Source of the DNA: Anaerohalosphaeraceae bacterium
GTDB taxonomy: Bacteria; Planctomycetota; Phycisphaerae; Sedimentisphaerales; Anaerohalosphaeraceae
Assembly: GCA_030641315.1 (NCBI GenBank)
Contig: DAOWHR010000181.1
Span: 1 to 34,986 of the forward strand
Reading direction: 5' to 3'
Length of the DNA: 34,986 nucleotides
The notes below the pieces were generated by a model that was given only the letters and a program-made list of their open reading frames with translations, ran no database searches and had not been told where the DNA came from. Shown here piece after piece: positions 1,907-32,282 of this stretch. Position 1 is the first letter of the stretch, and each line of letters starts with the position of its first letter. A program made the translations under genes and the position numbers.

Positions 1907-3234
1907 AGTACTGCCTCCAAAGCTTCGGCAAGCATCGATATTTCCTGTTTTGTTCTTTTTTCGGTTACGGCGATGAGCATTGAATTTTCCATACCATCGT
2001 AATATCTGCTCAGCGGGAAACCAGCGGCGTAGCCCTTTTCGATCAGCCTGCCAACGACATCAGCGGCATCACATGGCAAGTCCAGAACGAATTCGTTATA
2101 GAACGGTTTTGCATGGAACCGGGGATATACGGAGGGTATTGCAGTCAGCTTTTCATAAGCGAAACAAGCCTTATCCGCACACAACTGGGCGACTTCTTTT
2201 AAGCCCTGTTTGCCAAGCAGCGATGAGTACACAAGTGCGTTAAGTGCACAGAGAGCTTCATTTGAGCAGATGTTAGATGTCGCCTTGTCCCTGCGTATAT
2301 GCTGTTCCCTTGCCTGGAGTGTGAGTACGAATCCATCTTTGCCGGTGGTGTCTGTTGTTCTGCCTGCGATCCGACCTGGCAGCTTTCTTGCGTACTTTTT
2401 TCTAGTTGCCATGAAACCCAGGTAAGGTCCGCCAAACGACATCGGCAGGCCAAGGCTCTGGCCTTCACCGGTAACGATGTCGGCTCCCATTTCGCCGGGC
2501 GTTTTAAGAATCCCCAGCGAGATCGGGTAAGCAGACATTATCAGCAGCGCGCCTTTCGCATGGCAGGCCTCGGCGATATCGGTATAATCGTCAATGATCC
2601 CGAAGAAATTCGGATTCTGCAATATAACGGCGCCGGTGTCGTTATCAATGCTGTCAATCAGCGACTGGCGATTTATCGAGCCGTTATCATTTTTTGTTTC
2701 GACAAGATCGATGCTGAGGTTACGCGTATATGAGTGGATCATTACGCGATAGATCGGATTTACCGAGTCGCCTATGATGACCTTGTTGCGTCTTGTTATT
2801 CTCAGCGCCATCATCATCGCTTCATACATCGCCGTTCCGCCATCATACATCGAGGCGTTGGACGCTTCCATATTCGTCAGACGGCAGATAAGTGACTGGT
2901 ACTCGTATATTGCTTGCAGCGTTCCCTGTGAAAGTTCCGGCTGATACGGAGTGTAAGCGGTGTAGAACTCGCTGCGTGATGTTATAGCACTTACCGCGGC
3001 TGGTATGAAGTGGTCGTAAAAACCACCACCAAGAAACAGCGTGAGGTCAATAGCGTTTTTGCCGGACAGAGCGGAAAACCTGCTTCGCAACTGCTGTTCG
3101 GAAAGTCCGTTCGGTATCTTGAGATCCTTTATACGCAGATCATCAGGAATGTCCGCGAAAAGATCGTCCATTGTCAGACCAATATCTGCAAGCATCTTCT
3201 GACGCTGCTGATCAGTATTGGCTATATAAGGCAT
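1903..3234 (-). CDS. gcvPA: Glycine dehydrogenase (decarboxylating), subunit 1 (P protein alpha)
   Basis: This is the N-terminal half of the split P protein, forming the alpha2beta2 enzyme with GcvPB. The 443-residue length is typical. Family signatures include FLGGGFYDHFIPAAV near residue 68, FYTAYTPYQPELSQGTLQ near 90, ASMYDGGTAMYEA near 127 and EGQSLGLPMSFGGPYLGF near 257. The C-terminal region carries QHIRRDKATSNICSNEALCA. The ATG is preceded by GGAG with good spacing. A gap of about 40 bases separates it from gcvH upstream, and the 3' end overlaps gcvPB by 4 bases. Split P protein is the usual form in many bacteria and archaea, in contrast to the single-chain form of enterobacteria and mitochondria. 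Nothing looks truncated. Confidence 0.97.
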   Translation of the reverse strand: MPYIANTDQQRQKMLADIGLTMDDLFADIPDDLRIKDLKIPNGLSEQQLRSRFSALSGKNAIDLTLFLGGGFYDHFIPAAVSAITSRSEFYTAYTPYQPELSQGTLQAIYEYQSLICRLTNMEASNASMYDGGTAMYEAMMMALRITRRNKVIIGDSVNPIYRVMIHSYTRNLSIDLVETKNDNGSINRQSLIDSIDNDTGAVILQNPNFFGIIDDYTDIAEACHAKGALLIMSAYPISLGILKTPGEMGADIVTGEGQSLGLPMSFGGPYLGFMATRKKYARKLPGRIAGRTTDTTGKDGFVLTLQAREQHIRRDKATSNICSNEALCALNALVYSSLLGKQGLKEVAQLCADKACFAYEKLTAIPSVYPRFHAKPFYNEFVLDLPCDAADVVGRLIEKGYAAGFPLSRYYDGMENSMLIAVTEKRTKQEISMLAEALEAVL

Positions 3235-3275
3235 TATAATTCTCCAGCAAATATTTCTGTGCAGATGTTATCCGA

Positions 3276-3656
3276 TTAGTCATCTTCAAATAATTTCTTG
3301 TACGCGTCAGCATCCATCAACTGTTCGACCTGGCCTGTGTCTGTTACCTGTATCTTGACGATCCATCCCTGCCCGTAGCAGTCCTGGTTTATCAGTTCCG
3401 GTTCGGCTTCAAGAGCATCGTTAACATCTGTTACAGTTCCTGAAAGCGGGCTGTAGACATCGCTTGCGGCCTTTGTGGATTCGACTACGGCAAGTTCGCC
3501 TTTGACAGTAACTTCTTTGCCTGTTTCGGGCAGTTCGACATAAGTGATCTCTCCGAGCGCTTCCTGCGCGTGGTCGGCAATGCCGACAGTTGCGATATTA
3601 CCTTCGATCTTAACCCATTCGTGCTCTTCTGTGTAATATAAGCCATCAACTATCAT
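3276..3656 (-). CDS. gcvH: Glycine cleavage system H protein (lipoyl carrier)
   Basis: This small lipoylated shuttle protein carries the aminomethyl intermediate from the P to the T protein and passes electrons to lipoamide dehydrogenase. The lipoyl lysine lies in VVESTKAASDVYSPLSG (K62 with the start used here). The N-terminal YYTEEHEWVK and the later DCYGQGWIVKI are also family hallmarks. The frame is open upstream to a TTG at 3671, but the ATG at 3656 is chosen. GGGAGA sits just upstream of it, and MIVDGLYYTEEHEW gives the normal N-terminus and a length of 126 residues. The gene follows gcvT by only 15 bases, inside one operon. Confidence 0.96.
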   Translation of the reverse strand: MIVDGLYYTEEHEWVKIEGNIATVGIADHAQEALGEITYVELPETGKEVTVKGELAVVESTKAASDVYSPLSGTVTDVNDALEAEPELINQDCYGQGWIVKIQVTDTGQVEQLMDADAYKKLFEDD

Positions 3657-3671
3657 TATGTATTCTCCCAA

Positions 3672-4952
3672 TTAAAATCTTTCAAATCTTGTCAAAACTG
3701 TTCCATCTATATCGGCGGCCAACTGTTGGCCGAGATCTGTTGACTGAAGTTTTCCTTTGGCGGCCTGACTCTGGCTGCGTGCAAGATAGTACACCGATGC
3801 CGCATCGTCAATGCTGCATTTGTCCTTTTGGACATAGGCAAGAGCTATCTGTGTTTTAGCGACGTTTGTCGAGCTTAAAATCCAGCCGACGCAGGTACCC
3901 TGTTCATCAAGAACGGCGTCATCTTCTCTTACGGGCCTTACGCCTTTACGACCGGGCAGGCTTAGCCGTACTACTTTCATTGTGTGAGAGTTGTGATTTT
4001 CGACCATAGCGGTCTTTCCAACAAAGCAGTCCTTATCGAGCTTCACCGCCCAGCCGTAGCCCGCTTCTATCGGAGATATATTGTGTTTGCCCGCAAGTTC
4101 GTGTCCGTAGAGCGGCAGACCCGCCTCAATACGCAGGCTGTCACGTGAACCAAGGCCACAGGGTTTTACGCCCAGATGCTCACCTTTTTCCATAAGCATC
4201 CGATGAACGTAACATGCGTTGTCCGGATGTGTGTAAATTTCAAACGCAACAGATGCGCCTGTGTAGCCTGTAGTTGAGAACGGGACATCAGCATTACCTA
4301 TTGCAGTTTCGACAAAGGCGAACGATCTCATGTTTGTTATCTGGTCTTTGGCGTTATCGTCCGACACCAGTGAAAGGAGAATGTCTTTGGAAGCCGGTCC
4401 CTGCAGGGCAATGTCCACACGGCAATCGGCACCTGAGGAGGGTTCGCGGAGGTTACGCATCTTGGGCATTTCAGTGATGGGTTTGGCGTTTGGTTCGTCA
4501 ATGACAATATCACCTGCAATAACACCCTTAAACCACGTTTGGACCTTGGCATCGTTGGCGGCATTTACAACGACCATGAAAAGGATTTCGCTTTTTCGGT
4601 AAATGATAATGTCGTCAAGCACCGCGCCGGTGCCATCGAGCACCTGTGAATACTGTGCCCTGCCGGTCTTAAGGTTCATTACATTGTTGACTGTTAGCTG
4701 GTCCAGGAAAAGAGCGGACTGGGGACCGGAAAATTCCAGGACTCCCATGTGTGTACAGTCGAAAATCCCGGCTGCGGTGCGTACCGCGTTATGTTCATCT
4801 GTTATCGATGAGTACCACAACGGCATCATGTAGCCGGCAAAGGGAACGATCCGCGAAGGTTCGGCTAGTGCTGCGTGTCTGGAATAAAGAGCACTTTGCT
4901 GCGGCCGGGCCTCTGGAACGGTAAACTCGAAGCGTTTACTTGTGTATTGCAT
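3672..4952 (-). CDS. gcvT: Glycine cleavage system T protein (aminomethyltransferase), long form
   Basis: GcvT releases ammonia from the H-protein aminomethyl group and transfers the one-carbon unit to tetrahydrofolate. Signatures in order are VPFAGYMMPLWY near residue 36, AAGIFDCTHMG near 60, VLDDIIIYR near 110, VVVNAAND near 127, TTGYTGA, CGLGSRDSLRIEAGLPLYG and PIEAGYGWAVKLDK. At 426 residues it is longer than the usual ~365. There is an N-terminal extension of about 25 residues and an insertion of about 40 residues before the final ADIDGTVLTRFERF, which matches the usual C-terminal strand. The normal GYTGE reads GYTGA here, so one usually conserved acidic residue is missing. The ATG is preceded by GAGG. 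It is the first gene of the riboswitch-controlled operon. Confidence 0.93.
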   Translation of the reverse strand: MQYTSKRFEFTVPEARPQQSALYSRHAALAEPSRIVPFAGYMMPLWYSSITDEHNAVRTAAGIFDCTHMGVLEFSGPQSALFLDQLTVNNVMNLKTGRAQYSQVLDGTGAVLDDIIIYRKSEILFMVVVNAANDAKVQTWFKGVIAGDIVIDEPNAKPITEMPKMRNLREPSSGADCRVDIALQGPASKDILLSLVSDDNAKDQITNMRSFAFVETAIGNADVPFSTTGYTGASVAFEIYTHPDNACYVHRMLMEKGEHLGVKPCGLGSRDSLRIEAGLPLYGHELAGKHNISPIEAGYGWAVKLDKDCFVGKTAMVENHNSHTMKVVRLSLPGRKGVRPVREDDAVLDEQGTCVGWILSSTNVAKTQIALAYVQKDKCSIDDAASVYYLARSQSQAAKGKLQSTDLGQQLAADIDGTVLTRFERF

Positions 4953-4976
4953 GACTTTGTCCTCAGTAACATAAAC

Positions 4977-5005
4977 AAAAAAAAATAGCGCATTTCAGCG
5001 GGCTA
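4977..5005 (-). terminator. Candidate riboswitch expression platform (terminator hairpin)
   Basis: Downstream of the second glycine aptamer the transcript reads TAGCCCGC-TGAAAT-GCGCTA followed by nine T residues. This gives a TAGC/GCTA plus GC/GC stem with a two-base bulge and a 6-nt loop. The stem is short, but the uninterrupted T9 tail just upstream of the gcvT ribosome-binding site suggests transcription attenuation. The 5' side of the stem abuts the closing strand of aptamer 2, so mutually exclusive pairing is plausible but not folded here. Confidence 0.55.
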
Positions 5006-5225
5006 CATTCCTCTGTCCGATTACCTGAGATAGTTATCCCTTCGGTGCCGCCAGTCAGGCGGTCTCTCCAGAGCATCGTCAGTCCGAGATCCTTTTACCT
5101 GAGAGCATCCCCGCAGAAAATACCATCAACGGGTTACACCTTCGGCGCTCTTTAGAACCACATTGAAGACATACCTGCCATTTATTAAAGGTTTAGTATG
5201 AAGTGATTCGAGAGTCTCTCTCACG
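5006..5225 (-). promoter_or_regulatory. Tandem glycine riboswitch (gcvT RNA motif)
   Basis: Two glycine aptamers lie in the gcvT leader. The first has GCGCCGAAGG at about 5148-5139 and CTCTCAGGTAAAAGG at 5105-5091. The second has CACCGAAGGG at 5047-5038 and CTCAGGTAATCGGACAGAGG at 5029-5010. These are the conserved cores of the class, and the two are joined by a short linker as in classic cooperative tandem switches. In aptamer 1 the conserved core is preceded by an unusually long side arm: CTCTCGAATCAC pairs with GTGGTTC and AGAG, with CATAC/GTATG higher up the arm. The location just upstream of gcvTHP fits the known role, activating glycine breakdown when glycine is abundant. Confidence 0.92.
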
Positions 5226-6374: not shown

Positions 6375-7510
6375 CTATTGAACTCCGTAGGCTTCACTCC
6401 ACTGGGAGACGTTATATTTAATCACACCCTGGGGGTCACGACCAATACTGCGTGTTTGGTGACGCCACCTGTATGTGTTGGCCGCAGGCACTATGATGTC
6501 AAAGACGTTCGGAGTAGGATTATTATCTGCATCAAACTTGACCCATCCGCTGCTTAAAGCACCGCTGACAGTCTCGAAGTAATACTCTACCGGTTCAGGT
6601 GATTCGGCATCTACGGCTACGGTAGCTCTCATGAAATGATGGGTGTAACCTTGCGTGTCTTTATAGCTTGTCGGCAGTGTTTCCCATGTAGACGGGTTCG
6701 GATCAGGAGGCGTACCATCCTCGACATCGACGCCGGCTATGACTGAGGCAACCGGTGATATAGCGATATTACCAAAGGCGTCCTTGACCAGGAAGTAGTA
6801 ATCATATGTCTCCCCGACAACCAATCCAGTATCCCGGAACTCTCTGTTTTCGGACCAGCTGCCAACCGCATTATCAATAAAGTACTGCCGTATTTCTTGC
6901 CCCGTAGCAGGCAGTGATGGAGTAAATGGCGTCATTGAGTATGTATATTCTCCTTCCTGCTCAGACGATTGACCGTAGGCGCTTCCTGCAAGAGAACCGT
7001 CGACGTCAATTCGGACAAAGAGGTAAGAGACAGGAGGACTATCGTCGATAGCCTCGTCTGCAATCATACCGACAGTATCGCTGCCTGTGGCGATACCAAG
7101 TGGAAGCTGTACCCACTGAATATTTTCCGGCGCCTGAATATCGACACCTGCAAGAGCAGAGGCTTCAGTTGACCAAGGGCTTTCATTGCCTGCCGCGTCA
7201 ACTACCTTGAACCTGTATGTATACTCTCTACCGCTGGTCAGAGATCCAACATCAGTGAACTCAAGTCTGTTCACCAGCGGTTCACCTGATGGGTTGGTGT
7301 CGTTGATCGTAATAGTCACGACAGGAGTAAATACTAATTCCGTTTCATCGCGTCTCTCAAGTACATAGTCAGTGTAGTAATTAGCAGGCGATTTTGTCCA
7401 GTCGCCTGTCCAAGCGTCAAACGCAGAAGCCATGGTCATTGTTACTGCAGGACCACCAGCATCGACACCTACTGGCTGACCATCCGGTTCCCATTCGGCT
7501 GGTGCAGGTG
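6375..7510 (-). other. Domain region: three Fn3-like modules at the C-terminus of the giant protein
   Basis: Three modules of roughly 110-140 residues each carry the fibronectin-III-type F-strand pattern: [18 protein letters not shown] in the first, [18 protein letters not shown] in the second, and a diverged [11 protein letters not shown] form in the third. The first two end in AGVD linkers. Such modules usually act as spacers or carbohydrate-adjacent adaptors in secreted bacterial proteins. They follow the dockerin-like pair directly. Confidence 0.7.
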
Positions 7511-10500
7511 CGATTATATCAGCATCCTGCCAGCAGCTTGCAAATATCGCAAAATCACGGATGTCGATCATATTGCTGAAGTCAAGATCAGCGCCGAGGC
7601 ACCATCCTATCTGCTTACAACCTGTGTCAAGCCATTGACCAGCCAAGATAGCCATATCGTCTATGTCAATGACACCTGTACTTGGCTGCTCTTTAATAAA
7701 GTCACAAACCCAGCACTGATCCGGTATCAGACCGAAAGTATGCGGATAGTGGTAACCAAGATCGAGGTTGCTGCTGTCATACGAATCAAACTCATAATCG
7801 GGATTCGTTGTCCTTGTGTGCAGACCCAGTTCAGCAGCGAATACTTCACTTCGCCCTTCAAGGCCGTCGGTATAATCAACACACTGGTTATTTTCCTGAG
7901 TGAGATAGTATTCACCAAGCAAATCATCGCTGGATGTAAACTGCGGATCAATGCCAGCATTGCTGGTCTGTTTGCCGCTATCATCCCAATCAAGTGTGCA
8001 TAGATCGTCAACGAATATTAGAGTTTTTCCGCCTTCGATGGAACTGTCCTTAATGCGTACTGTCGAAGGAATCGGATCGTTCTCAAATCCCGTAGCAATC
8101 GCGATCGTTCTTCCGTTAGTCTGATCAAAGAGGGTACCATCCTGATTGAACAGTGCGTTATCCCAGACGATAGAATAGATAATATCCGTTTGGCTGTTGT
8201 ATGCAGTGTAGATACCGGCACCAAAGGCATGGTCGAAAACATCCTGTTTCGATATGATATTATTGGCGACCGTACAACTTGTCAGTACAGGATCACTGAG
8301 CCAATTGACGGACAGACCAGCACCGTCTCTGCCGGAAATGTTTTCGGCGATAAGACAGTTGAATACCGAAGGACGTCCTGCGCTGTTACCAGTGAAGTAC
8401 AGACCGCCGCCTGAGGCAAAGGCCTCATTGTCCATTATCTGCGAGTGTGCGATATTCAGGTCCATGGACTCTGAGAATATACCGCCGCCCTTTGCCATGA
8501 ACTCAACAGTATCGATCACCTGTTCGACAGTGCCTGTAACATTGCCCTGAGTATCAACGACATCCACCAATCCGATAGTATACCCAACAAAGTTGTTTAC
8601 AATATCGGTGTTGGTGATGTCAGCAGAGCCTCGTGAGCCATAGATACCGCCTCCGAAATATGCCCTGTTATCAGCGACGTTACAGTCAGTCACTGCCGGT
8701 GCAGCATCAGCCCAGTACATACCTCCGCCAACTGCGGCTTCGTTACCTGAAATCTCGCAATTCTCAAAGACAGTCGCAGAAGTGTCCTTAAAGGCTACAC
8801 CACCGCCATGTCCGAGATATGCGTCCAGAACATAGGTGTCATCGGGCTTGGGAGCTGTGTTGCCCATGATCATACATTCAACAAACTGTGCTGCTGAACC
8901 CTGATCACAGTATGCACCGCCGCCAAATGTTGGGATGTCATAGCTAACAGACGGTGTACGCTCCTGTTGCGGATCACCGGATTCACCGCCTAAGCCGCTT
9001 TGTCCGCTTTGGGTGCTATTGTTGATAATCGTACATTCGATAAATTTAGGCAAACTATCTTCGGCACAATAAATTCCACCACCATACGCACTATAGTAGT
9101 CGTAGTCACCGATATAACCCCAAGCCTGCCATGGTGCGAACGACTCATCGCTCCATCCGCCTCCAACACCAGTTGGTATAGAGACACCGTCAATGGTGAA
9201 ATAGGTATCTCCATCACCATTATTACCACCATTACCGCCATTACCGCCTACAGCGAGACAGTCTGTGATAGTACAATTCGTCAGAGTCGGGGTTGCCCCT
9301 TCGTCTATGTAGATACCGCCGCCACGGGCAGTACCAGGCCATCCACCACGCCCACCGGCACCTGCATTACTTACATTGGCGCCGTTTCCGCCACTTCCCG
9401 CATATACCCGGCAGTTGCTGATGATCGTATTGACGATAATCGGGCTGGATTCAGGAGCACAGTATATTCCACCGCCTCCTGCCCAGGCACCATCGAAGCC
9501 GCGTCCGTTTTCAACGCCACCCTGGCCATTGGCACCGTTGCCTGCCCTTACGAAGAGGTCCCTGATAACACAGTTCTTAATAGAGGGAGATGCACCATGG
9601 CCGACATATATACCGCCGCCAAAGTAGTTTTGTCCCTGCGGAGCCTGAATCGTCCCAAGCTGAATGGTTATACCATCGATCTTGGCATCAGGACCGGTAT
9701 ACCTTGCAAACGTTATTGGACGTCTGTTCAGAGCCCCTGCCGGATTACCTGGCTCGTTCATATTAATAATAGTCCCTGCAACAATCGAGGGATCATCCGG
9801 GTTTGTGCTTGTTATTGTAACATCCTTATCGATGTACATCGATTGAGCATAGTACTCACCTGCGTCAAGTATGATGATATCACCATCTTTAGCAAAATCG
9901 ACAGCTTCCTGGATGGTCTCAAAGTTAGCCGGTACATAGTAAGTTACAGGATCTGCATTGCCGTCATCGGCAGACAAGATTGCCAGGTCAGCAGCAGTAT
10001 CAGTATCAAATATCTGCGGTACCATTTCAGCATCTTCACTGATCAACTCAAGATCAATCACATCATTGACGTAATCGACGACCCTTGGAGTGAGATATGT
10101 GTACATCTCTTCGCCGGTGATCCAGTTATCAGGAGTTGTGCTCGCCCAGTCGGCATTTCCGCTCATAGCCTGGAGCAGGTACTTTGTATATATACCGTGG
10201 TTGAATTCCTGGCTTTCAAACGCGGTCTGCGTTTCAGTACAAGCAGTCAGGACCACATGACTGGTTCCGGCAGCCTTGGTGAAGTCAGCGGCAAAGCCGT
10301 CGCCTACATCCGGTACGTTGTTTCCGATACCCTTAGCGATGAACGAAGAGTTTCCAGGTACTGTAGCCGAGAAGCTTGTATCCAGAATGACAGCATAACT
10401 GTCTGTTGCCAGTTTTCTGATCCATGAATAGAGATCATCATCGCTTATGTTCTGATAGTCGTAGACTACCAACTGTTCATCAAAATCATCAACTTCATCA

Positions 10501-13500
10501 AGCGGATAAGCGTCATCTTCGGTCGTTCCGAAACCTGAGAAGTAGAAGACGAAGACATCATCGTGATCTGCCTTGTCGACGATCTCGGCGATAGCGGCTT
10601 CTATGTTTGTCCTTGTCGCTGACGTATTCAGAAGCAGGTACATATTCTCAGCATTCCATTCCGGCCTGATAACCAGTTTGGAATAGAACTGAGTAGCATC
10701 ATAAGTCGCATAGTTAAGTCCCTGAATACTATAAATATTGTAGTCGTTTACACCAACGATCACAGAGTAGTATTTGGTTCCAACCGGTTCATATATCGCT
10801 TTGACGAGTTTGTCCTCAGTCATTGTGACAAGATTGTTGACATCAACAACAGAACCATCGTCAGCGCCTTCCCATCTTACCTGGAAACCTGCAGGAGGTG
10901 CTGTGACCCATACATCGACCACGGTGTCAGGATAATAAGTTCCACCGGCAGGTTTCAGTTCAACAACAGGAGTGAAGCCGGAAGGCATAGCAGGATCGAG
11001 TTCTGTTTCAACCGTCAGGTCATAACCGATCGACTCAAAGCGTACGGTTACGGTCCTGTCTTCGCTCATTGTAACGATGTTGGTCGAACCGTGGTACTTG
11101 TCATTGTCCGTACCCATCCAAACCACATGGAAACCAAATTCTTGCGGCATGGTAACTGTAAGTGTGACCTGAGCGTACTGCTGATACATCGGTCCGGTCG
11201 GTACAACAGTTGCGACAGGATTGAAGCCCGGCAGTATAAACTGATCAGGTATTACATTGACAGTCAACGTATAATCTATCAGCTCAAACGGAAGACGGTG
11301 ATAACCGAGATTGACAAGGCCATCATCAAAGACACTGTCTGTCCTGGTTGTTCGCCCGTCAAGCCCGATGACAGTGGCTGTATCGCTGCCCGCATCGAGA
11401 CACGGACTATCGATAAGCTGTAAAGCATCGATCTGGCTCAGGAAGAAGTCACCGACGAAGTTTGGATCGTCAACGATGTTTTTGCTGGCCGGGTCCCAAA
11501 CCATTTCGTTCGGGTCCCAGTACGGCAGTGAACATCCTTCTTCGACATAAATTGGTATGCCGGGTTTAAGGCTGGAGATCGCCATGCCAAGATTCACTCT
11601 CGGCTTGGTGATATTAACCTTTGTGTCAGTAACAGGATCACCCGATGTTATGAGCAATGAACGCATCTCCATCGGAGAGATATAGCGTCCAAGTTCTTTC
11701 ATCGCTGCGGACTGAACACTGATGACACAACCTGCGGCAAACGGACATGCAGAAGACGTTCCATTGAAGTATGGGAAGTAATCACCTGGATCGTAGCCGC
11801 CTTCACCGACTATATCAGTTGTATACATCGGATCTGCCGGTGCGAGGATATCAAGCAGTTCATCCGTATTGGAATAATCTGTAACCTGGTCATTATAGTC
11901 ATATACCGCACCAACGGATATTACATTGCTCATAGCGGCAGGGTATCCGATACCCTGACCGGCCGATCCGTCATTACCGGATGCAGCAAGAATGGTCATG
12001 CCCGCAGCTACAGCGCTTTCCGCGGCAAGTGTCATAGCAGGTGAAATCGCATCAGCTTCCGCGGCATCCTGCAGGAACATAGCCGATCCCCAACTGTTAC
12101 TAATAACCATGATCGGAGCGGTTGCATCATCATTCTGATGAGTAACACACCAGTCCCAGGATCGCAGACCGGCATCAAGTGTCATGTTGCCGTCCTCATT
12201 CATCATTTTGAGGGCATAGATATTTGCATTGTGAGCGACACCGCCAATATAGTCCCCGACATTACCAAGATCACCTGCAGCAATACCCGCACAGCAGGTA
12301 CCATGAGCATTATCGTTTGGCATCGGATCGGCATCACCGTCACCGAAATCGTAACCGCCGATAACCTTATCATTGGGGAACCCGCCGCCGCCGAGCATCG
12401 GATGCGTGTAGTCAACACCTGTATCAACAATAGCGACAGAAAGCCCCGTGCCGTCATATTTCATTCTTGCCTCTGTTGCATTAGCCAAAGGTATTGACTG
12501 AGCCAACGCAGGCTGAACATATATGACAGGTTCTATGTGCTTGACTGCTGGATTTGTCAGCAGTTTTTCAAGTGCGACTTTTGTGATCGAACCTGAGAAG
12601 CCTGCCAGGTTTTCAAATCTGTATCTCAGATCAAATTCAGCAGAAGACATTGAAGAAAGAACCGGAGCCTGAATATAACTGATCTCAGTTCTAAACTGTG
12701 CCTTTGACGCCTCTGATGTCCAGTCGACAGAATCCCGTAATCCTGCAGGTTCTACCAGTGTTACAATGATCTTCGCCTTTTCATTGCCGGCATCATATTC
12801 AGCGTAAATTTTCTCGCCGCTAACCAGCGTTGGCACTACCAATGGTGCCGGGGCGGGGTCAGTCTCGAAATCAACAAAAATATGTTGATTAGGATCTACG
12901 ATCGGACCAATATCTGTATATGTCATTTCTACAGTTGATGGCCTTGCGCCGTATTCATCGCCGCTGCCTACCGCTAACTGCGAACCAAGCACGCCGAGGT
13001 TGTCCCATATAATACTATCGATAACTTTGGCGAAGCTGTCGTAGGAGACGTACAAACCGCCGCCGAGGCCGCCTGCTTCTCCGAGACCACCGGTCACCGA
13101 GTTATCAGAAATTGTACAGTTACCGATGACAATATCGGTATTTCTGTTCACAGAAACCGCACCGCCGTCACGGCCTGCGGTGTTCTTGGTGAACAACGAA
13201 TTGAACAGTTCGTTCTGGAAAGCGTTGTCATTGTCACTGCCGTTGTAGTATACGGCACCGCCTGATGCGGATGCCCTGTTCTCTCTGAATATTGAGTTAA
13301 GAACGTTTACCTTTGATGTAACGCTATGGAAAGCACCGCCCTGACCGTACATGGTAGTAAGCGGAGCAATGTTCGCAGCGGCATTTCGCAGGAACTGTGA
13401 CTCGTTGATAACACCTTCCGTATCGAGAGCGTAAATACCTGCACCGTGATACGCGGTATTGTCAACTGAGTTACAGTCAACAACCTCAAGACCGCTAAAT

Positions 13501-16500
13501 GCGCTATAGACACCGCCGCCAAGGGTGGCATCATTGTCCGCGACCTCACAGCCTTGGAACCTGACTTCACAGCCGTCTTCGTAAGCTACGGCACCACCGA
13601 AACTGATATAAATATCATCAGGAACTCCAAACTCCGGTGCCTCAGGATCATCTGAGATCAGCGTAGTATCAGCGAAGTTTTCGGTGAAGTTACAATTAAC
13701 GAATTCAAGATCGCTGTCTTTAGTTGCATACACAGCACCGCCTGCGTTTGGAATATCGTAGCGTTGAACAGGTCTTGGAGGCGCTGGCCCAGATCCGCCT
13801 ATACCGCACAGACCGCCGTCAGTGTGGTTGCCGCGGAAGGAACAGCCGATGAACTTGGCCGAACTTGCGAACTCGCAATAAACCGCACCGCCGTAACCAC
13901 TGTATCTTGTCCAGTCATCGTACCGGTCATAGGCATTGCCGCCGCCCATGACAAATTCACCGTAGTACTCTTCGTATTCGGCCCAATTGTTGAACCTGTC
14001 CCAGCCGGTCCACTTGGCCCATAAGGACCAGTCGAACCTGTTGGCCTGAAGCGGGAAAGGACTTCTGCTGTACTTATCACCAAATGTCCAGCCATTCCAC
14101 CAGTCCCAGTTCGGATATTCTTCCTGTGTAGGCGACCATTCATAGTTGCCGCCGCGACCGCCGTATGGGTTTGGCGCACCATTGGCACCACCATTACCGG
14201 CATTGCCGCCGATAGCGGAGTTGTTAATAAAATCACAATCAAGGAATACCGGCTCACTGCCGAGTGAACAGAATACCGCACCGCCGTATGCACGACCTGC
14301 CCATCCGCCGTCACCGCCTGGCGCACCCGTACAACCCGTATTACCGTCCGAACCGTCACCGCCCAGAATAATATTGTCCCTGAATATACAGCTTGAAATA
14401 TTCGGTGAACTGTCAATGATGTTCAGCATACCTGTTACACTTCCGCCGTCACCACCGTCAACCGAACACCCGGGACCGGTAATAGCATTACCGCCAGATA
14501 TGCGATTGTCAGCAAAGACACAATTGCGAATTGTAACATCACTGTCTATCAAAACAACACCACTATTGGTCCATGCGTCTCCGCCAGTAAAGGTCAACCC
14601 TTCTATGATAGTATCAGGCCCTAAGCCTATTAATTCAAGATTGACTCCTTCAAGCACAGTAGCTGCCACTGAACCGCTGTCATCAGGATTTGATCCTGTA
14701 ATAGTAATGTTCTTGCCGCCAAGCTGAAGTGCATACAGCGGGAAAGCAGCCGAAGCCGAAGAGTAATGCCCAGGCGCAACAACAACAATGTCGCCTTCTT
14801 CGGCCTCATCTATTCCATGCTGAATAGACGTGTAATCATTATTGCTTCCGACAACTATGGTTCTTGGTTGATTGAAGGTTATGACAATATCTTTGTCACC
14901 TGTCATTATAACAGCATTGACCAGAGCAGTTGAAGAGTCATTAACTGTCCCGCCTGACCAGGTCTTCACCCGATAACCGCTGTTAGGAATTGCTGTGATC
15001 GTAACTGTAGCCCCGGCATAATACAAACCGGTATCGACTTCTACAGTTCCATTACCTCCGGGAACAGATACCGTCAAATTATACTGCGGCAAAGTGGTTG
15101 GATCATTGTAATGGTAACCAATGTCCACGACACCGGCATCAAGTGCTCCGACAGGATCGGTCGTGAAGATGTTCAAACCGTAGAAAGAAGCATCCCCAAC
15201 GCCTGTATTTACCGCGGCACTTGCGCCCTGGTTGAGATAGTACATCCCAAGCGGACCGGCTACGAATACCGGATCGCCGTCGACGTTGGCGCTGTTGCCT
15301 GCGACAGAATTGATACCTGCCGCTCCATTATAAGCCTGCCCTGTATTGGCATCGAAGTAGTCACCATCGGCGTTGTCAAAGAACAAGCTGCCGACAATCG
15401 AAGAATCTCCGCCGATCTGCTCTTCATAAACAGCATATTTAACGTTGCCTGCGAATATCGAATTGCTGATCTGAGGATTGGCTGTCCAGTCGCAATAAAC
15501 CGCGCCTCCAGCCTCATTAACCGTGTTGTCAGCAAATGTACAGCTTTCGATAAACGGTTTAGCATTGGCTGAACACATTACGGCACCACCTGTAAGGGTC
15601 GCATTGTTGCCAGTAAACAATGAGTTCTTAATGCTGTGAAGAATTCTGTCATTTGTACCGTTGAAAGCTATCGCACCACCGTATGACCTCTCGGCATCTG
15701 CTTTGTTGTTCTGGAAAATGCAATTTTGAATATCCGCACTTGAATTAACAAATGCAGCAGCACCGCCAATACCTTCCAGCAGAACGTCATAATGATCGTG
15801 AATAATGCCTGTCGCGTGGTTATTGCTCATTGTTCCGCCCGTGATCGTCGCGTCACTGTCGACAAGTGTCAAAGCACCTCCGCTCCATGCGGTGTTGCCC
15901 GCGAAATAACTGCCGGTTGATGTCAGAGTAAGATGATGAGCGTTAATAGCACCGCCAAGATCGGCTTCGTTTGCGGTAAAGGTACAGTTGTCGGTTAATA
16001 ATTCAAGTGTGCTATAGACCCGGGTTGTCACGTCGCCGACAGTACGTTCTGTGGAATAGGACATGTCTATGGCACCGCCGGTACCCTGGGCAACGTTGCC
16101 GCCGAACTGACAGTTTGTAAATGTCGCGTTGGACTTGAGGCTAACAGCACCGCCATTGCTCTGGGTCTCATTGCCCATAAACGAAGTGTTATCGACAAGC
16201 ACCTGCGGGCAATCCTGAGCGATATATAAGGCACCGCCCTGAACAGTAGAATTTCTGGCAGGGGGATCCCACGGCCAGGCATCGGGAAGTGCTGAATATT
16301 GAAATTCCGAAAGATCACGTGTGGCATTTTCCTGGAAAAGACAATCAAGAATATTGACCGTAGAATCACTTTCCACTCTCATGGCACCACTAATATTGTC
16401 GATGAAATCACAATTATCAAAGTCGACGTTACTCGTAGATTCGGCAAATACTGCACCGCCCATTGTATAAGCTATTAGCTCAGGGAACATCGTTCTAGGA

Positions 16501-19500
16501 GCTGTTTCAAACGAAGGATTTGTGTCAGACATTGAATTATACGCCAGGTTTTCAATGAATTGACAGTCGGTGTAATCAAGAATACTGCCTTGGCCACCAT
16601 AAACAGCACCGCCTGCGATATCGAAGCTGCCGATAGCCATACCATCTCCACCGGGTGCATCAAAATTATAAGGAGCCGCATAATTGGCAGTACCGATTCC
16701 CGCCGCACCGCCTGAATAGGCAAAGCCTGCGGAAGCGATATTATTGGCGAAAACAACCTGCTGGAATATCGGCAAACTTAGAGCGTCACTGTGAACCGCA
16801 CCACCGTAACCGTCCCCCATACCGGTACCGCTGTCACCGCCCCAACCGGCCTTACCGTTGCCAGTACTGCCGCCATTGCCGCCGATACCACCGCAGGCGC
16901 CTCTGGCCCTGTTATTTTTGATCGTACAATTGGTGATCGTCGGACTTGAAGCTCCAACACAAGCGACAGCCCCACCAAAGCCGTTACCGGTTCCGTTACC
17001 GGCAATACCGGCCGTCTGAGCGTTACCGACCATTACACTAAAGCCATGGTTTCCGTCACCACCCTGACCGCCTGTAACGGTACAGTCAGTGATAACGCAA
17101 TTCAATATCTTAGGTGAACTGGCGTTGTCGCAGAGAATCGCTCCGCCAAAACCGTCACCGTCAGCATCTTCACCGGAATTTGCCTGATTTGGAACACCAT
17201 CTTCAGTGATTGGAGGATTCGGTGGGAATGGATCAGGACCATTATTTACAGTTCCGTTACCGCCCAGCGCCCCAACCATATAACCATTAATAATTGTCAG
17301 ACCTGTAACAACACTGTCAGCACCTTCGCCATGGTTGAACAGGAACGCTCTTCTTGGTGTGTATCTGTTACCGCGACAGTCGATTATTGTATTTGCGATA
17401 ACATCCGGGTCGTCAGGATCGACGGATCTGACAGTTAAAGCTCTTCCCGAAAAATCAAGACCTTCATATATCTCCCTGTTGAAGCCCGGGTTAATATCTT
17501 CACCCTCGAAGTACCAGTCATGAAGCGCAACCGCATAGTCACCAAAAGTACCAAGGTAATGGGTACCCTGTTCCAAAACGATCTCGTCGCCCGGGCTGGC
17601 GTTTATGAAGGCCTCTTCCAGTGTCTGATATTGTGACGGGACCAGAAGAATCCTCTTGATAGGCTCCTCGAACTCGATAAATACACGTTTGTCCTCGTTA
17701 ACAAGTACACTGTTGTTCAGTTCTCTCCATGCCGGATCATTGTCCGCACCGTACCAGCGTCTCAGCGCATATCCCGCTTCCGGGAATGCCGTAAAGGTTA
17801 CGAGGAAACCGTTTATGTCGGGTTCTATGAATTGGTAGTCCAGCGGACTGCCATTGACTACGATCACTGTTACAAAGTCGTCTATTGCCGGGTCGAAGAA
17901 CTCAACGAGAACTTCGCCAAATATATCCACTACTTCTACATGCAGGTTAAAGGGGGCAGGTATAACATCGATAAGGTCGTCGTCTGTATGGGGCCTGTAA
18001 TGATAACCCATGTCCGCAAAGCCGAAATCCTGAAGCTCAAACACGCTGTCAGTAGTCAAATTCGCTGCCAGACCATAGCCGTCATTATTCTGACCGGGCC
18101 ATGGGAACATCGAATCAGTATAGGCATTTTGCTGGCCGGCATTAATACCCGGGCTGTCAGCCTGGTCAAGGTAGAAATCACCAAGCACACCAGTTAGGAA
18201 TAGGGGGTTGTTATTGATGTTACCGTCACCAGCGTCACCGTTTTCGATACATGAAAAAGTCGCTTCGCAGTTTGTAAGATCATCACCATTGACAAACGGA
18301 TCTCCCCATTGATCAAATGGACCAGCGCTCATTCCGATGATACAGTTGCTAATAGCAGGACTGGACTCGTCACTGAAAACACCGCCGGTAGGATTGCCCG
18401 CGCCGGGATCATCAGAAACGGGACCGTCAGCACCGGCATTGTTTACGATCGTACAAAGCTTGATAACCGCGTCAGATTCGGATAGATAGACCGAACCAAA
18501 ACCGTTTGTTATATTATGGCTGATAAGACACGATACAAAGTGACCAACCGGCTCGCCGTACCCGGAAACAGCGCCACCGAGAAAATCTCCGGTATTGCCA
18601 GTCATCTCAGTTCTTGTTATGATCGGGCCGATACCATTGTTATAGAAGACAGCTCCACCGCCCTGCCCTGCAGTGGCAATATTGTTGCGAAGTATACTTT
18701 CGTTAACCGTCGCCTTAGTACCGCCTTCCTCTGTTGCCAAAACAGCATTGTCAGACTGTGTCCTTAGGTAAAGCGCAGCGGCGTCAAGGGCAGGGTCTGC
18801 TGGATCGGCCTCTCCGGCCAAATCCTCAGCTTCTGTAGCAAGAGCATCGAGACCATCAAGCGTAGCGGTCAACTCTTCTTCACTCAGACCGGCAAATGCG
18901 ATAGCACCACCACCGTCAGCAATACAGTTCTCGATAATGCAGTTATTGATGTATGGACGGGATACACCCGTAACAAGAATACCGCCACCATTGGAACCAC
19001 CGGCCCCAATATCAGGGTCCTCAAAACCAACTCCGTTGATGATCGTGAAACCATCCAATATAGACGCATTTGTCTCAACTAACCAGAATCTGAAACCTCG
19101 TGTAAGACCTTCACAGTCGATGACCGTACGCTTTGGTCCGTTTTCACTGCGGACAGTAATAAGCCTGTTACCAAAATCAAGATTGACATTTCCGTCTCCG
19201 GTGTATGTACCATCGGGTACTACAACGATCTGGCCATCGATAGACGCATCGATAGCTTGCTGAATGGTTCCATAACGGCCCTTAATGTCAGCGAATTGAT
19301 CTTCGACACGGATATTGTATTCATACTCAACCCATACATCGGTATTGTCATTTAACAGCGTAACGTAAAGGATGCTGTCGTCATCAGGGTCCGCAATGAT
19401 ATTGGCCGGCAGATTGGCCAGATCAAGCTGTCCATAAGTACTGACATCATCACCAAAGTACCACGCTTTAATCGCAAATCCGTCCACTGGAGTTGCGGTA

Positions 19501-21401
19501 AACGTTATCGTGTAACCTTCCCAGCCTACAAGTAATTTTGGATCACCTTCCGAAGCACGCTCGTCCACTGCTGGTGTAAGCGGATCGTCCTCTGGCGGAG
19601 CGAGCCAACCTCGACTCGTTTGGTCTACAACATCCTCAACCACGCCTACGGTGAAGCTAATTTCAGGCCTCAGCTCGAATTCTAAAGTAACATTCTTGTT
19701 GCTGCCAATCATTGTAACAGCATTGATTTCATCAATGCTGGCGTCATCGTCAGTGCCTGTCCATGCTTTTACCTTGTAGCTTAACAGCGCTGCATCATAA
19801 ACTTCGGGCATCAACGGAAACGCTTCCAGACCGGCTATGGAACCTTCGGTATAACTGCCCCTTCGCGGAACGACATCACCTTCGCCGCCTACAATTCTTA
19901 CATCAAGATAGAGAAGCTTTTCAAAAGTAACACTTACAGACTTGTCAGCGTTCATTAAAACAGTATTTGTCAACTCAGTACCGGCCGGGTCGATCACATC
20001 ACCAAGCCACAATGAAACTCCATATCCCGCTTCGGGGGTAGCAACAACAGTAATGACCTCACCATCCGCGAATTTCATACCGTCGACTGGCGTGAGCGTG
20101 CCATGGTACAGACCATCGAGACTCTTGTTGACGGATGTAGATAGAATGAACTCAGCAAACTCAAATTTGACGGTAACATTTTTGTCACCGTCCATCGTAA
20201 CGACATTGATGTCGACATTGTCCAGCCGGTCAGCTTCTGTCCATGAGACAGTTCTGTAACCTGCGTCTGGTGTCGCGGTTAGCAAAATTTCGCTGTATGC
20301 CTTTACCGCTATACCCGGTGCGGGGTATTCAGGGTCAATGCTGCCGTTTGCGCCGTCAACTGCGGTGGTAAGTGTAAATGTTCCGGCAGCTCCTGTATTC
20401 GGGTAGTGATAGCCCAGGTCAGCAAGTCCCTGATCAGGCTCACTGTCTGTCCTTGTCGTATGGGCAATGCTGCTCAACACAGGGACATTTATCGCTGTCG
20501 CCCAATTTATACACGGGCTGTCATTAAGCTGACCTGCGTCGACCTGACTTAAATAATATGAGCCGTACATTCCCGGGCCATTCCTGAACATCGGATTGAC
20601 GAAAATATTTTCTCCGCCGATGTCAGCCGGGTCGGCCAGGCAGGAGTAACTTGCCATAATTCCTTCAAGGTCGTCATTGTTGCCGTTGAATATACAGTTT
20701 GTCATAGCGACAGTAGAAGCAGCAGCTTCGACAGCAGACGGTGCAGCTCCATTATTGCCTGCAATAGTACAATTTGAAATAGTTACAGTTGATCCGTAAA
20801 TGTCGATCGCGCCGCCAAGCTCGTCAGCTGAATTGTTAATTATCAAACAGTTGACCACGCTTGCGTTTGTTTCATAAAGCGCTATAGCACCGCCAAAATC
20901 AGCATTATTGCCGTTCATCACACAATCGACTATAACCGGAGTACCGCTGAAACAATCGATCGCACCGCCATAGATTGCCTGACAATTATCGATAACACAA
21001 TTCGATATCGTTGGCGAAGCGTCAATACATTCGATACCGCCGCCGTAATAGGAGGTGACACCGTTGATAATCGTAAAGCCTTCAACTACAGCTGCATTAG
21101 TTTCATAGCTGTGGAACCAGAAACCCCGACCGAGGAAACCGCAGTCGATGGTACACACAGCCGGCCCGCCGTCACTGCGCACGGTGATGTCCTTGCCGTT
21201 GAAGTCGATGTTGTAGTTGCCGGCGCCGTCATACGTTCCAGGCCCCATTATAACAACATCGCCAGTGTTTGCCGCGTCAACCGCTGCCTGAATAGTCGGA
21301 TAGCTGCCAGAGCCATCAGAGAACACTTGAAGATCAGCTGCAAAAGCAGAAGCAGCGGTCATTAACATCACAGTTAGAGCAAGAACGATTGTCTTTTTCA
21401 T
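6375..21401 (-). CDS. Giant secreted mosaic protein: beta-helix modules, subtilisin, dead caspase-like domain, dockerin-like and Fn3 modules (~5,008 aa)
   Basis: One open frame of about 5,008 codons. The chosen ATG (21401) has GAGGGTGG 5' of it and begins [21 protein letters not shown], a clear signal peptide; in-frame GTG and ATG codons 36-42 bases upstream would hide it. Order by residue: beta-helix 1 (~30-335), four InlB-like beta modules (~340-700), beta-helix 2 (~701-1135), InlB-like module, beta-helix 3 (~1255-2100), InlB-like module, beta-helix 4 (~2185-2840), S8 propeptide and protease (~2850-3280), beta-helix closing segment ending at 3367, two InlB-like modules, caspase-like domain (~3537-3800), beta-helix 5 (~3818-4555), dockerin-like pair (~4556-4625), three Fn3-like modules. 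Helix modules open with TIQAAVD-type and GDxVxxxxGxY motifs and carry chlamydial-Pmp-like GGAI and FxxN repeats. No membrane anchor, sortase or Por-type tail is evident. The role is unknown; a surface or matrix-associated protein is inferred. Confidence 0.9.
7525..7735 (-). other. Domain region: dockerin-like EF-hand pair of the giant protein
   Basis: Residues ~4556-4625 contain two similar half-repeats, [19 protein letters not shown] and [20 protein letters not shown]. Each has a D/N-rich loop followed by a hydrophobic helix, as in type I dockerin or planctomycete dockerin-like modules. The second loop keeps D, D, N and D ligands; the first is less canonical. Two CWxC/GWC-type cysteine clusters flank them. 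A calcium-binding adhesion or cohesin-docking role is inferred from the family; no cohesin is present in the window. Confidence 0.68.
9990..10790 (-). other. Domain region: caspase (C14)-like fold with both catalytic residues replaced
   Basis: Residues ~3537-3800 follow the caspase/metacaspase p20 pattern: [11 protein letters not shown], then [15 protein letters not shown], then [12 protein letters not shown], then [13 protein letters not shown], then [13 protein letters not shown]. Family members read FSGHG and D-x-C-x-S/N at the last two. Here the catalytic His is F3624 and the catalytic Cys is S3676. The spacing of 52 residues between them matches active enzymes, which supports true homology with loss of catalysis. 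Confidence 0.72.
11560..12860 (-). other. Domain region: subtilisin-type (S8) protease with I9-like propeptide
   Basis: Residues ~2850-2985 look like an inhibitor-I9 propeptide: [10 protein letters not shown], then [20 protein letters not shown], then a short stretch to [11 protein letters not shown]. The catalytic part follows, with Asp2993 in [13 protein letters not shown], His3033 in [13 protein letters not shown], oxyanion Asn in ILAASGNDG and Ser3216 in [12 protein letters not shown]. The triad and propeptide are complete, so an active, self-maturing protease is expected. It is inserted inside a beta-helix module of the giant protein. Confidence 0.9.
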
Positions 21402-24933: not shown

Positions 24934-27900
24934 TTATTCCAATGCGGCAATCGCATCAGCTTCGGCCTCATCTTTAAGTATGATCGTAGGCTTAACCAGT
25001 ATCAAAAGTATCTGCTTGTCCTTGATCTCACTGCGGTTCGAGAAGAACCTTGAAATGATCGGTATCTTGTTAAGTATCGGGACACCGGATTCGATCTCAC
25101 GTTCAGCGGTCAGAGTAAGTCCACCAAGAAGCACCGTACCCATATCAGGAACAGTAACCCTGGTCTGTAAGTTTGTAGTCTGGGTCAGAGGCAATTCGAA
25201 TGATGCGGTAACCTCTTCGACACCGCCAGCACCATCAGGAACAAAAGTTGTAGTGGTACCAAACGAGCTTTCGAGTTCATCCTGAAGCACTGCGCTGATC
25301 CTGAGCAAGACATATTTCTTGTCCGAACTTATTGTCGGCGTAACACTCATCTGAATACCGCTTTGCAGCACATCCAGTTCGTTGACAACACTGCTGAAGT
25401 CCCTGAGATTGGTCCCTGTCGCAAGAGTAGTGGTTTCAACGGTAGCGTTTGAAACATAGTTCCTTTCCTTTGTCACATTGAGCGTTGCAGGTTCACCACT
25501 TAGAACTGTGGCCATGGGGGCACTAAGTGACCTGGCATGACTGCTTGACTGAGTCGCGTCAAGAAGCAATGTAACCTGAAGGTCGTCAGCGTAAGTAACT
25601 CCACCTGTCAGGGCCGACAATACGCTTCCGCCCAGACTGGAAGAAATCTTTGTGGCCAGAGGTGCAACAATTGAGTTTGACTCCTGTTCGAGAGCATTAA
25701 ATGTAAAGTGATGACCATCACCCAAACCGACCATTTCAACATCGATGCCGATATTCTCAAGCCAGTTTTCATCGACCAGTATGAACCTGGTCTCGATCAT
25801 AACCTGGTTATCTACAATTACTTTCAATTCATCGATAAGTTGTTTGATCTTTTCGTGCACCTCAGGTGTCTGCCACACGATAAGCATTGAGGTACCAAAT
25901 TGGGTAATTCTGCCTTCACCGGTAATCTCGTCTTCCAAAGTGGTTGAGCCGCCACCGCCAATATTGCCGCCGCCTGTGGTATTGTTGTTGCCCTGGTAGT
26001 CTTCGTCCCAGGTATCCGGTTCGATCTGAGTGATATTATATATAAGCTCTCTGACCCGGCTGAACGAGTTCGAACCACCGCCCATGCCGCCGCTCATACC
26101 GCCCATGCCGCCGCTCATACCACCCATGCCGCCGCTCATGCCGCCCATGCCGCCGCTCATGCCGCCCATGCCGCCGCTCATGCCGCCCATGCCGCCGCTC
26201 ATACCGCCGCTCATGCCGCCCATGCCACCGCTCATACCGCCCATGCCGCCGCTCATGCCACCCATGCCGCCGCCCATGCCGGATCTATCCTGGAATGGAG
26301 CACTTGAAAGTTCGCTGACATCATATATCCTCTGCTCATATTTTTCCGGCAGAGTTTCCTTGGTAGCTATCGTAATAATTCCATTTTCAAGAGAGTACGC
26401 CAGATCGGTAAGACCGCCGCTGACACCCTGAATAACCCTTTCAAGACCTGTCCTAAGCGGTATAGATCTCAGTCTTTCACCTGAAATTCCAATAGCGGTA
26501 TCTTGTTGGATAAATGCGTTATTCTCAAGATCGGTCCACAGAACAATTATCTGTAAAGGAGGTTCAACAGCATTAACAAGTATCTCGATAGCATCTTCCA
26601 GCGTTGTATCCGAAGTCAGTGAGGAAAGATCGACGGTCTCGTCCAACTGCTTATTGACCTCGACATCAAGTTCATTCTGACCCGACATTTCTTCTTCTTT
26701 GCGGCGTTCTACGATCTCTTTCCAGTTTTTCGGATGAGTAATAATATCAGAGTTGGGGATCCCAGCCTCATCTGCTCTATGGAACGCTTTGATCTCAGCT
26801 TCGTCAGCCCGGCGTCTTGTTTCTATCTGCTCTCTCCAATTCATGTTGTCTTCGAGCATATACTTCAAGGTCAACGCCTCATTGTTATTCTTGTCCAGAG
26901 CCAGAACCTTATCAACCTGTCCCATCGCCGCGTCATACTTCTGCTGCCTGACGAAAATACCGGCGTTATCAAGGGCTTCTTCGATGCTCGCTTCGCGGGC
27001 CATGTCAACTTCTTCTCTTATAGACTGCTGAAGTGCCTTTGCAGCTTTTGCAGCCTCTGCTTCCTGAGCATCCTGATATGTCTTCTCAGCATCTGATATC
27101 TGGTCATTCATCAATGAAAGCTGGCCATAGTTCTGTCTGAAGAGTTCTTCGCCAAGCAGAATTTTGTTCTTATTTACAACCGAAAAGGCCTTTGCGATCG
27201 CCTGCTTTGCAAGAGCGAACTCGTTGTGGGCAAGATGCTCGTTTGCGGTTTTGATCGCATCGGTAATGATAGCCTGGGTGTAACTTATCTGTACGAGGCG
27301 CTGTCGCTCTTTTTCATCATTGAACGTTCTGGGCTTATTTTCAACGGGAGCTGCGATTACCTCGACTGCTGGAGCAGCTTCAATCTTGACCTCGGTGACT
27401 TCATCAACTTTCACAACCACAGGTTCCGGTATTACAACAACTGGTTCCGGCTGCGGAGCATCGATCTTCGCGATGTAATCAGCTGCGGTAAGTCCTTTAC
27501 GCGAAATGTCCAGGTTGGATGCGGCAACTTCAGCAAAACCGGCCCTGGCTTTAGCCTTGTCACCTGCCTTAAGTGCGTCAACACTTCCGGCGAAGACATC
27601 TTCCATTTCTTTTTTCCTGGCCAATTCTGCGTCAGCCAGAACAGAACTGTTTACTTCTTCGATACAGCTGACGATCTCCAGACGTTCTTCGCTGGACAGA
27701 TAGGGGCTGTTGACAACAGCCTCGAACTTAACAAGTGCCGGTTGATACTTCTTATCGGATGCGAGCTTCTTGCCAGCCTTAATATCTTTTGCGATCCGCG
27801 TTTTTGCTGCTATCGCTTTGTCGGTGTTTTCAATATATGTTCCCAGATCGCTTTGCTGCTGCGAACTCAAATAGGTCCAATATTCCTTCTTGACCTGAAG

Positions 27901-28881: not shown

Positions 28882-28957
28882 CTTTATGTTCTCCAACAAA
28901 AGTTATGATCGCAAAAACCACGACCGCTTGTGCGGTCCAGATTGGTAGTTGGGTCAG

Positions 28958-30030: not shown

Positions 30031-30175
30031 AGCCTTTACTTTTAAGATCTTACGCGACATCTGGCCAGTTTAAAACTACTACCAAGTCACATTTGGTACC
30101 TGCTTTGCTACACATTTAACCGTGTCATTAATAATGTAATAATATTGTTTGAGAATAACAGGAGAAATACTTATC

Positions 30176-31870: not shown

Positions 31871-31939
31871 TCCCCCAAACCATTTAATTAAACTGATCAC
31901 AATAATAATTATAAATAGTAAAGACACAGGAGTATATAT

Positions 31940-32230
31940 ATGAAGCTTAAACCATTGGAAGACAGAGTAGTTGTTAAACCGCAGCAGGCAGAAGAAAAAA
32001 CCGCAGGCGGAATCGTTCTCCCCGGCAGCGCACAGGAAAAACCTCTTATGGGTAAGATCGTTGCCATCGGTGCCGGCAAACTTCTCGAAAACGGAGCACG
32101 CGGCGAAATGAGCGTCAAAAAGGGCGATGTCGTTCTATACGGGAAATACGGCGGAAGCGATGTCGAAATTGACGGAACAGAGTACAAGATCATGCGCGAA
32201 AGCGAAATTCTTGGCGTTGTTGAAAAATAA
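31940..32230 (+). CDS. groES: Co-chaperonin GroES
   Basis: GroES is the heptameric lid of the GroEL chamber. It has 96 residues, the usual length. The N-terminal LKPLEDRVVVKP, the mobile loop EKTAGGIVLPGSAQEKP with the hydrophobic IVL tripeptide that docks on GroEL, and the end EYKIMRESEILGVVE are all standard. CAGGAG precedes the ATG. It lies between two groEL genes, 69 bases after the first and 52 before the second, so it can supply a lid for both. No terminator is visible on either side. Confidence 0.97.
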   Translation: MKLKPLEDRVVVKPQQAEEKTAGGIVLPGSAQEKPLMGKIVAIGAGKLLENGARGEMSVKKGDVVLYGKYGGSDVEIDGTEYKIMRESEILGVVEK

Positions 32231-32282
32231 AGGATGAAACCGCATTTTTGTCAATTGAGACAATTACTGGAGGTTAGCAAAT

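Follow-up and report, generated by a model that had tools for sequence, protein, structure and literature searches.

Ssp of Serratia carries an N-terminal protease that caps a single beta-helix and cuts itself free (PMC9977779). Dockerin_1 domains are reported to be proportionally more frequent among huge proteins of Planctomycetota (PMC11573180), and a giant protein of Ca. Menyafoubacter contains tandem CASH helices (PMC12057145). Pseudo-orthocaspases are known in other bacteria, with Tyr-Ser as the commonest change (PMC6426788). In the literature searched (bioRxiv and most subscription papers lay outside it), no description was found of a domain placed in the end loop of a helix, or of a pseudo-caspase, in giant planctomycete proteins.

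The window, i.e. the whole stretch of 34,986 nucleotides analysed here, comes from an Anaerohalosphaeraceae bacterium. On its minus strand, an open frame of 5,008 aa, counted from the ATG, runs from position 21401 to 6375, and the plus strand across 6375-21401 is crowded with stops. The ATG is preceded by a ribosome-binding-like sequence (GAGGGTGG), and an alternative start, a GTG, is located upstream of it at 21443. Residue numbers given below run from this GTG; the ATG is thus residue 15, and residues 15-5022 of protein P0001 correspond to the ATG frame. A signal peptide (21339..21401, minus strand) was read from the sequence at the start of the frame. A preliminary description of this DNA had reported an uninterrupted frame of ~5,000 residues encoding a secreted mosaic; the frame is present, on the minus strand, and the listed domains were detected behind the signal peptide, with corrections for the protease, the caspase-like domain and the dockerin-like pair.

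The window is one of the 479 contigs of a MAG assembly, and this could suggest that the giant is an assembly artefact or a fusion of adjacent genes. We give this reading almost no weight. Genome G009 contains a collinear frame of 6,922 aa with 36-42% identity across almost the whole length (residues 9-2858 at 36%, 1070-4967 at 42%), a homologous single-frame giant is present in a one-contig genome (G005), and composition is even. In addition, the order from the subtilisin (S8) to the caspase-like (C14) domain is repeated in five further genomes of the same family, so the giant is not an assembly join, a flaw that the preliminary description had considered. An assembly chimera was therefore rejected, as independent homologues share the collinear order.

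We propose, with a probability of about 0.5, that the giant is a Sec-exported scaffold of the envelope or matrix with a built-in self-cutting protease and a non-catalytic pseudo-caspase. Each of its parts is already known singly, and its function we infer.

Domain layout and related giants

Pfam and NCBIfam profile scans, run on overlapping pieces of the protein, gave matches to Beta_helix, Chlam_PMP, Flg_new_2 (InlB-like), Inhibitor_I9, Peptidase_S8, Peptidase_C14 and, weakly, fn3; those to Peptidase_S8 and Peptidase_C14 are far above chance. Among the families named in the preliminary description, S8, C14, Beta_helix and the InlB-like modules were thus recovered, I9 and fn3 were recovered weakly, and dockerin gave no match at E 0.1. 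Block motifs and helix matches (Beta_helix, Chlam_PMP) distinguish five beta-helix blocks, in agreement with the earlier count. Their right-handed parallel fold (PF13229) is indicated by Pfam matches and by the rung pattern in an AlphaFold model of block 4, while the Chlam_PMP matches within the blocks account for the Pmp-like GGAI/FxxN repeats described before.

All features of the giant are encoded on the minus strand. Block 1 (residues about 48-350; 20394..21302), recognized by block motifs and a NosD-like match, is followed by an InlB-like (Flg_new_2) cluster of three stretches (about 355-715; 19299..20381; E 8e-24) and by block 2 (about 716-1150; 17994..19298), supported by profile matches and block motifs. 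A second InlB-like module (about 1205-1260; 17664..17831; Pfam E 7.5e-7) precedes block 3 (about 1263-2115; 15099..17657), which is matched by Beta_helix (E 2.8e-15) and Chlam_PMP. A third module (about 2122-2195; 14859..15080; Pfam E 3.4e-13) leads to the first part of block 4 (about 2196-2848; 12900..14858), distinguished by Pfam, strand motifs and the model. Behind the protease and the end of block 4 there are two further InlB-like modules (3388-3553; 10785..11282), assigned by motif and without a significant Pfam match, so that the several modules expected of this type were found. Block 5 (about 3832-4570; 7734..9950; Beta_helix E 2.6e-17) carries no insert.

When the S8-to-C14 stretch was used as a query against 148 related genomes, matching frames reached 12,792 aa, and about 24 related giants were recognized. 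The order of S8, linker, C14, helix and C-terminus is common to the window and genomes G003, G007 and G010; G018 has the same pieces, interrupted by contig gaps. All six giants with a C14 domain belong to the window's own GTDB family. The combination and order of domains, for which the preliminary description knew of no characterized protein, did not appear in any description found, but the order is recurrent within this one bacterial family. The giants form a coherent, apparently undescribed family with members exceeding 10,000 aa.

In the class, for which 397 genomes were scanned, the matches listed place the inserted protease only in the window's taxonomic order, in at least three families, and outside that order only frames of 661-1155 aa were seen, with the I9-S8 part alone aligned; few candidates were scored per genome and the counts are lower bounds. 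A scan of named genomes gave no matches with a single protein query, and an alignment query gave matches. Those of full length, including the helix, came only from planctomycete-labelled records (Sedimentisphaerales, Phycisphaerae, Anaerohalosphaeraceae, and two Pirellulales contigs of one MAG), while the protease-only matches extend to Verrucomicrobiota, Hydrogenedentota, Myxococcota and others.

The subtilisin zymogen and the end loop of the beta-helix

The I9 prosegment (2880-2980; 12504..12806) is weak by sequence (Pfam Inhibitor_I9, E 0.005), and the best PDB matches of the block 4 model are unautoprocessed pro-subtilisins. The S8 subtilisin domain (2981-3296; 11556..12503), which starts AQSIPL, was identified by Pfam (Peptidase_S8, E 5e-40), alignment and fold match. 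Its catalytic residues D3007, H3047, N3157 and S3230 are intact; of the copies compared, 37/37 keep the catalytic His and Ser, and each of the 35 that extend to the Asp has it. The pro/mature junction is LAQSIPL, with LAQ[SAG]IPL or near variants in most copies and different sequences (RQAIAL, AQALAL and others) in some. Mature subtilisin begins AQSVPY, and the junction resembles this start. The earlier assignment of an apparently active subtilisin zymogen thus fits the retained residues, prosegment and junction. Self-processing of the giant is predicted from sequence, and the conservation of the junction makes this prediction specific and testable.

In a tree with outgroups, the inserted S8 copies fall into one group, separate from standalone enzymes (SH-aLRT 93). 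Two copies are exceptions, i.e. L194, an N-terminal protease, and L138, which is cut short near a contig end soon after the protease, and because of them up to three label changes are needed. The tree without outgroups does not fix the number of insertion events.

By sequence, the zymogen is placed in the last coil or loop of block 4, which resumes behind it at PIYVEEGC (3297-3387; 11283..11555; strand motifs). In nearly all giants with the full zymogen, I9-S8 is preceded by a ...STVxVxYSDI... strand and followed by an IYVEEGC... strand; in the exceptions (G113, G026 and G104) it is found at the protein N-terminus. In other blocks, including block 5 of the window, the two flanking strands are separated by a short linker only. 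The AlphaFold model of block 4 (mean pLDDT 79.6, pTM 0.67, 34 sequences) has the order helix rungs, zymogen, closing strand, and the suggested geometry of the insertion is drawn from sequence and strand order.

Profiles for both sides of this slot yielded 69 paired block ends across the related giants. Gap sizes fall into three classes with no values between them: 32/69 block ends have no insert, 10/69 have gaps of 218-280 aa and 27/69 have gaps of 445-470 aa. The largest inserts are I9-S8 in all 27 blocks, while the intermediate ones comprise VWA (5/10) or nidogen-like (NIDO, 3/10) domains and two inserts without a significant Pfam match (G013 giant, 2870-3129, and G006 giant, 2262-2543), which are perhaps further domain types. 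Neither the slot position of the protease nor the other inserts in relatives had been part of the earlier reading. The three-mode gaps and varied inserts suggest that the last helix coil acts as a domain socket. More speculatively, the socket might be a general site for working domains, in which self-cleavage of the zymogen would leave a non-covalent split beta-helix held by its cap, a switch for maturing or dismantling the scaffold.

Two giants contain several inserts in slots of the same type. The 12,792-aa frame of G095 (C56, L046-L048) and the 10,565-aa frame of G052 (C19, L049-L050) each have two I9-S8, one VWA and one nidogen-like insert. The latter has, besides the two inserted copies, another and only distantly similar S8 domain (31% identity) close to its N-terminus (residues 187-445).

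An intact S8 triad would also be expected of a degradative exoenzyme, whose helices bind polymers or prey and whose subtilisin digests protein for food or predation, self-cleavage being mere zymogen activation. This is possible at less than even odds. Standalone relatives look like secreted enzymes, several of them with dockerin-like tails; a protein-degrading dockerin complex has been proposed for freshwater planctomycetes (PMC6461901), and a predatory role for a PVC giant with tandem CASH beta-helices (PMC12057145). However, the VWA and nidogen-like domains in the same slot of relatives point to a general scaffold, and the Pfam scan of the giant showed neither a lyase nor a glycosidase domain.

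The caspase-like domain, the C-terminus and the neighbouring genes

The C14 p20 domain (3554-3826; 9966..10784) was assigned by Pfam (PF00656, E 2.7e-12), NCBIfam (NF047832, E 1e-13, under its curated cut-off) and alignment. Its motifs are SGFG and LDTSFS instead of the usual SGHG and D-x-C-x-S, i.e. Phe and Ser replace the catalytic His and Cys. An active caspase was rejected on this ground: the caspase-like fold of the preliminary description stands, without the catalytic dyad, and judging from these residues the domain is catalytically dead, a pseudo-enzyme. Within the giants, the Cys is lost in 6/6 C14 domains (S, G, G, S, G and D) and the His in two of them as well, while each of the 20 further C14 domains that were compared from the taxonomic order keeps the dyad. 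The six giant copies are recovered as a single clade (99/96); copies with an intact dyad are placed closest to it, at weaker support. The six Cys losses are therefore not independent, since a single early loss would explain them all.

Behind block 5, alignment of homologues distinguished a degenerate dockerin-like pair (4577-4640; 7524..7715), whose second repeat retains several Asp. Dockerin_1 (PF00404) gave no match below E 0.1 in the giant, and matches in 6/22 homologous C-termini do not include that of the window. The window's own genome has 21 Dockerin_1 matches and no cohesin (PF00963) was found in it; as this genome is 90% complete, this is not proof of absence. Cohesin matches were found in 2/59 genomes (G005 and G041), each in a frame of ~2,000 aa. 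The dockerin-like pair proposed earlier is thus present as a degenerate form below the family model, and a cohesin-based complex in the same genome was set aside, as no partner was found in the 90% covered. The protein ends with about three Fn3-like modules (4645-5022; 6378..7511), weak by sequence (fn3, E about 0.01-0.015) and clear by fold, with Foldseek matches of the C-terminal model to titin and contactin Fn3 tandems (E 3e-13 to 2e-9), which bears out the earlier assignment. No C-terminal autotransporter beta-barrel was found, and a type Va autotransporter was rejected.

The giant might alternatively be a stalk-displayed maturation protease like NalP and SphB1, with further proteins that the same cell secretes as its main substrates. 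Subtilases on beta-helical carriers are known, e.g. Ssp with its protease capping the helix (PMC9977779), and there is one close copy only of this subtilisin type in the genome; yet no barrel was found and no substrate is known, both of which count against such a role, which we hold to be unlikely.

The surrounding genes are largely of housekeeping type, i.e. glycine cleavage genes and those for a nucleoside phosphorylase, aroA, aroC, tsaB, two chaperonins and a DnaJ-like protein. The two adjacent Cpn60 chaperonin genes, followed by the DnaJ-like gene (30149-33899, plus strand), are also found as a set beside the giant locus in G005. A 1,321-aa protein encoded at 24934-28899 (minus strand) contains a secretin domain, long repeats in its N-terminal part and a stretch rich in GGMSGGM. 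Where the flanks are long enough, most relatives in families f1 and f7 have a secretin gene next to the giant or near it, and in five genomes (G052, G084, G095, G096 and G113) this gene has the same orientation as the giant and precedes it by only 40-140 bp. The link may reflect an inherited neighbourhood, because aroA, aroC and tsaB often travel along. Given this and the fact that no secretin was found near giants of family f2, a dedicated exporter was rejected. The window's own genome has eight secretin genes above the cut-off.

Proposed role and comparison with known systems

The most likely reading of the sequence is a scaffold protein of the matrix or surface that is secreted and has a built-in, self-maturing protease. 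The five tandem right-handed beta-helices with InlB-like linkers, ending in the dockerin-like pair and Fn3 modules, would form a scaffold in the cell envelope or extracellular matrix. After export the zymogen would fold and cut itself at LAQSIPL, before A2981. With the signal peptide gone, a part of ~2,950 residues would comprise helices 1-4 together with the prosegment, and the protease would be on a second part of ~2,040 residues along with the pseudo-caspase, helix 5, the dockerin-like pair and Fn3. The two parts would probably be held together by the helix cap, or would separate, so that the scaffold is released or remodelled. The active protease could then work on nearby proteins, and the pseudo-caspase may serve as a non-catalytic binding or regulatory module.

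This scaffold reading is supported by the signal peptide and envelope-type domains, by the retained S8 residues, conserved junction and pro-subtilisin fold match, and by the three-mode slot gaps, collinear homologues, grouping of the inserted S8 copies and single-clade loss of the Cys. Against it count the junctions that vary in some copies and the weak I9 sequence match; no attachment signal was identified and, in this genome, no cohesin was found. A mid-chain cut could also harm a scaffold unless the pieces stay together. If the socket rule holds, it lifts the giant above an arbitrary mosaic to a repeatable architecture, and the question of function in giant planctomycete proteins can be addressed at a single loop, a single active-site serine and a single predicted cleavage site.

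Like the subtilase autotransporters Ssp, NalP and SphB1, the giant combines an S8 protease and a right-handed beta-helix in one secreted protein. In Ssp, however, the protease is N-terminal to the helix and a C-terminal barrel is required, whereas the giant, in which no barrel was found, has five helices, and the last coil of one of them holds a zymogen that brings its own I9. The chlamydial Pmp proteins share the GGAI/FxxN repeat signature; the giant differs from them by the same lack of a barrel and in that a single chain unites several helices with a protease. Standalone I9-S8 proteases of Planctomycetota, Verrucomicrobiota, Hydrogenedentota and others resemble its protease (about 42-55% identity, I9 prosegment, junction region), but most are frames of 550-1,800 aa with the protease usually near the N-terminus, outside a beta-helix slot. 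Huge planctomycete and PVC proteins are similar in size, secretion and the presence of beta-helices or dockerins, and no description of a protease slot or pseudo-caspase was found for them (PMC11573180, PMC12057145). Finally, described pseudo-orthocaspases share the p20 caspase fold with a replaced His-Cys dyad and are mostly from photosynthetic lineages (PMC6426788), whereas the copy in the giant has Phe-Ser and is part of a secreted giant scaffold, which adds a secreted planctomycete lineage to the pseudo-caspases.
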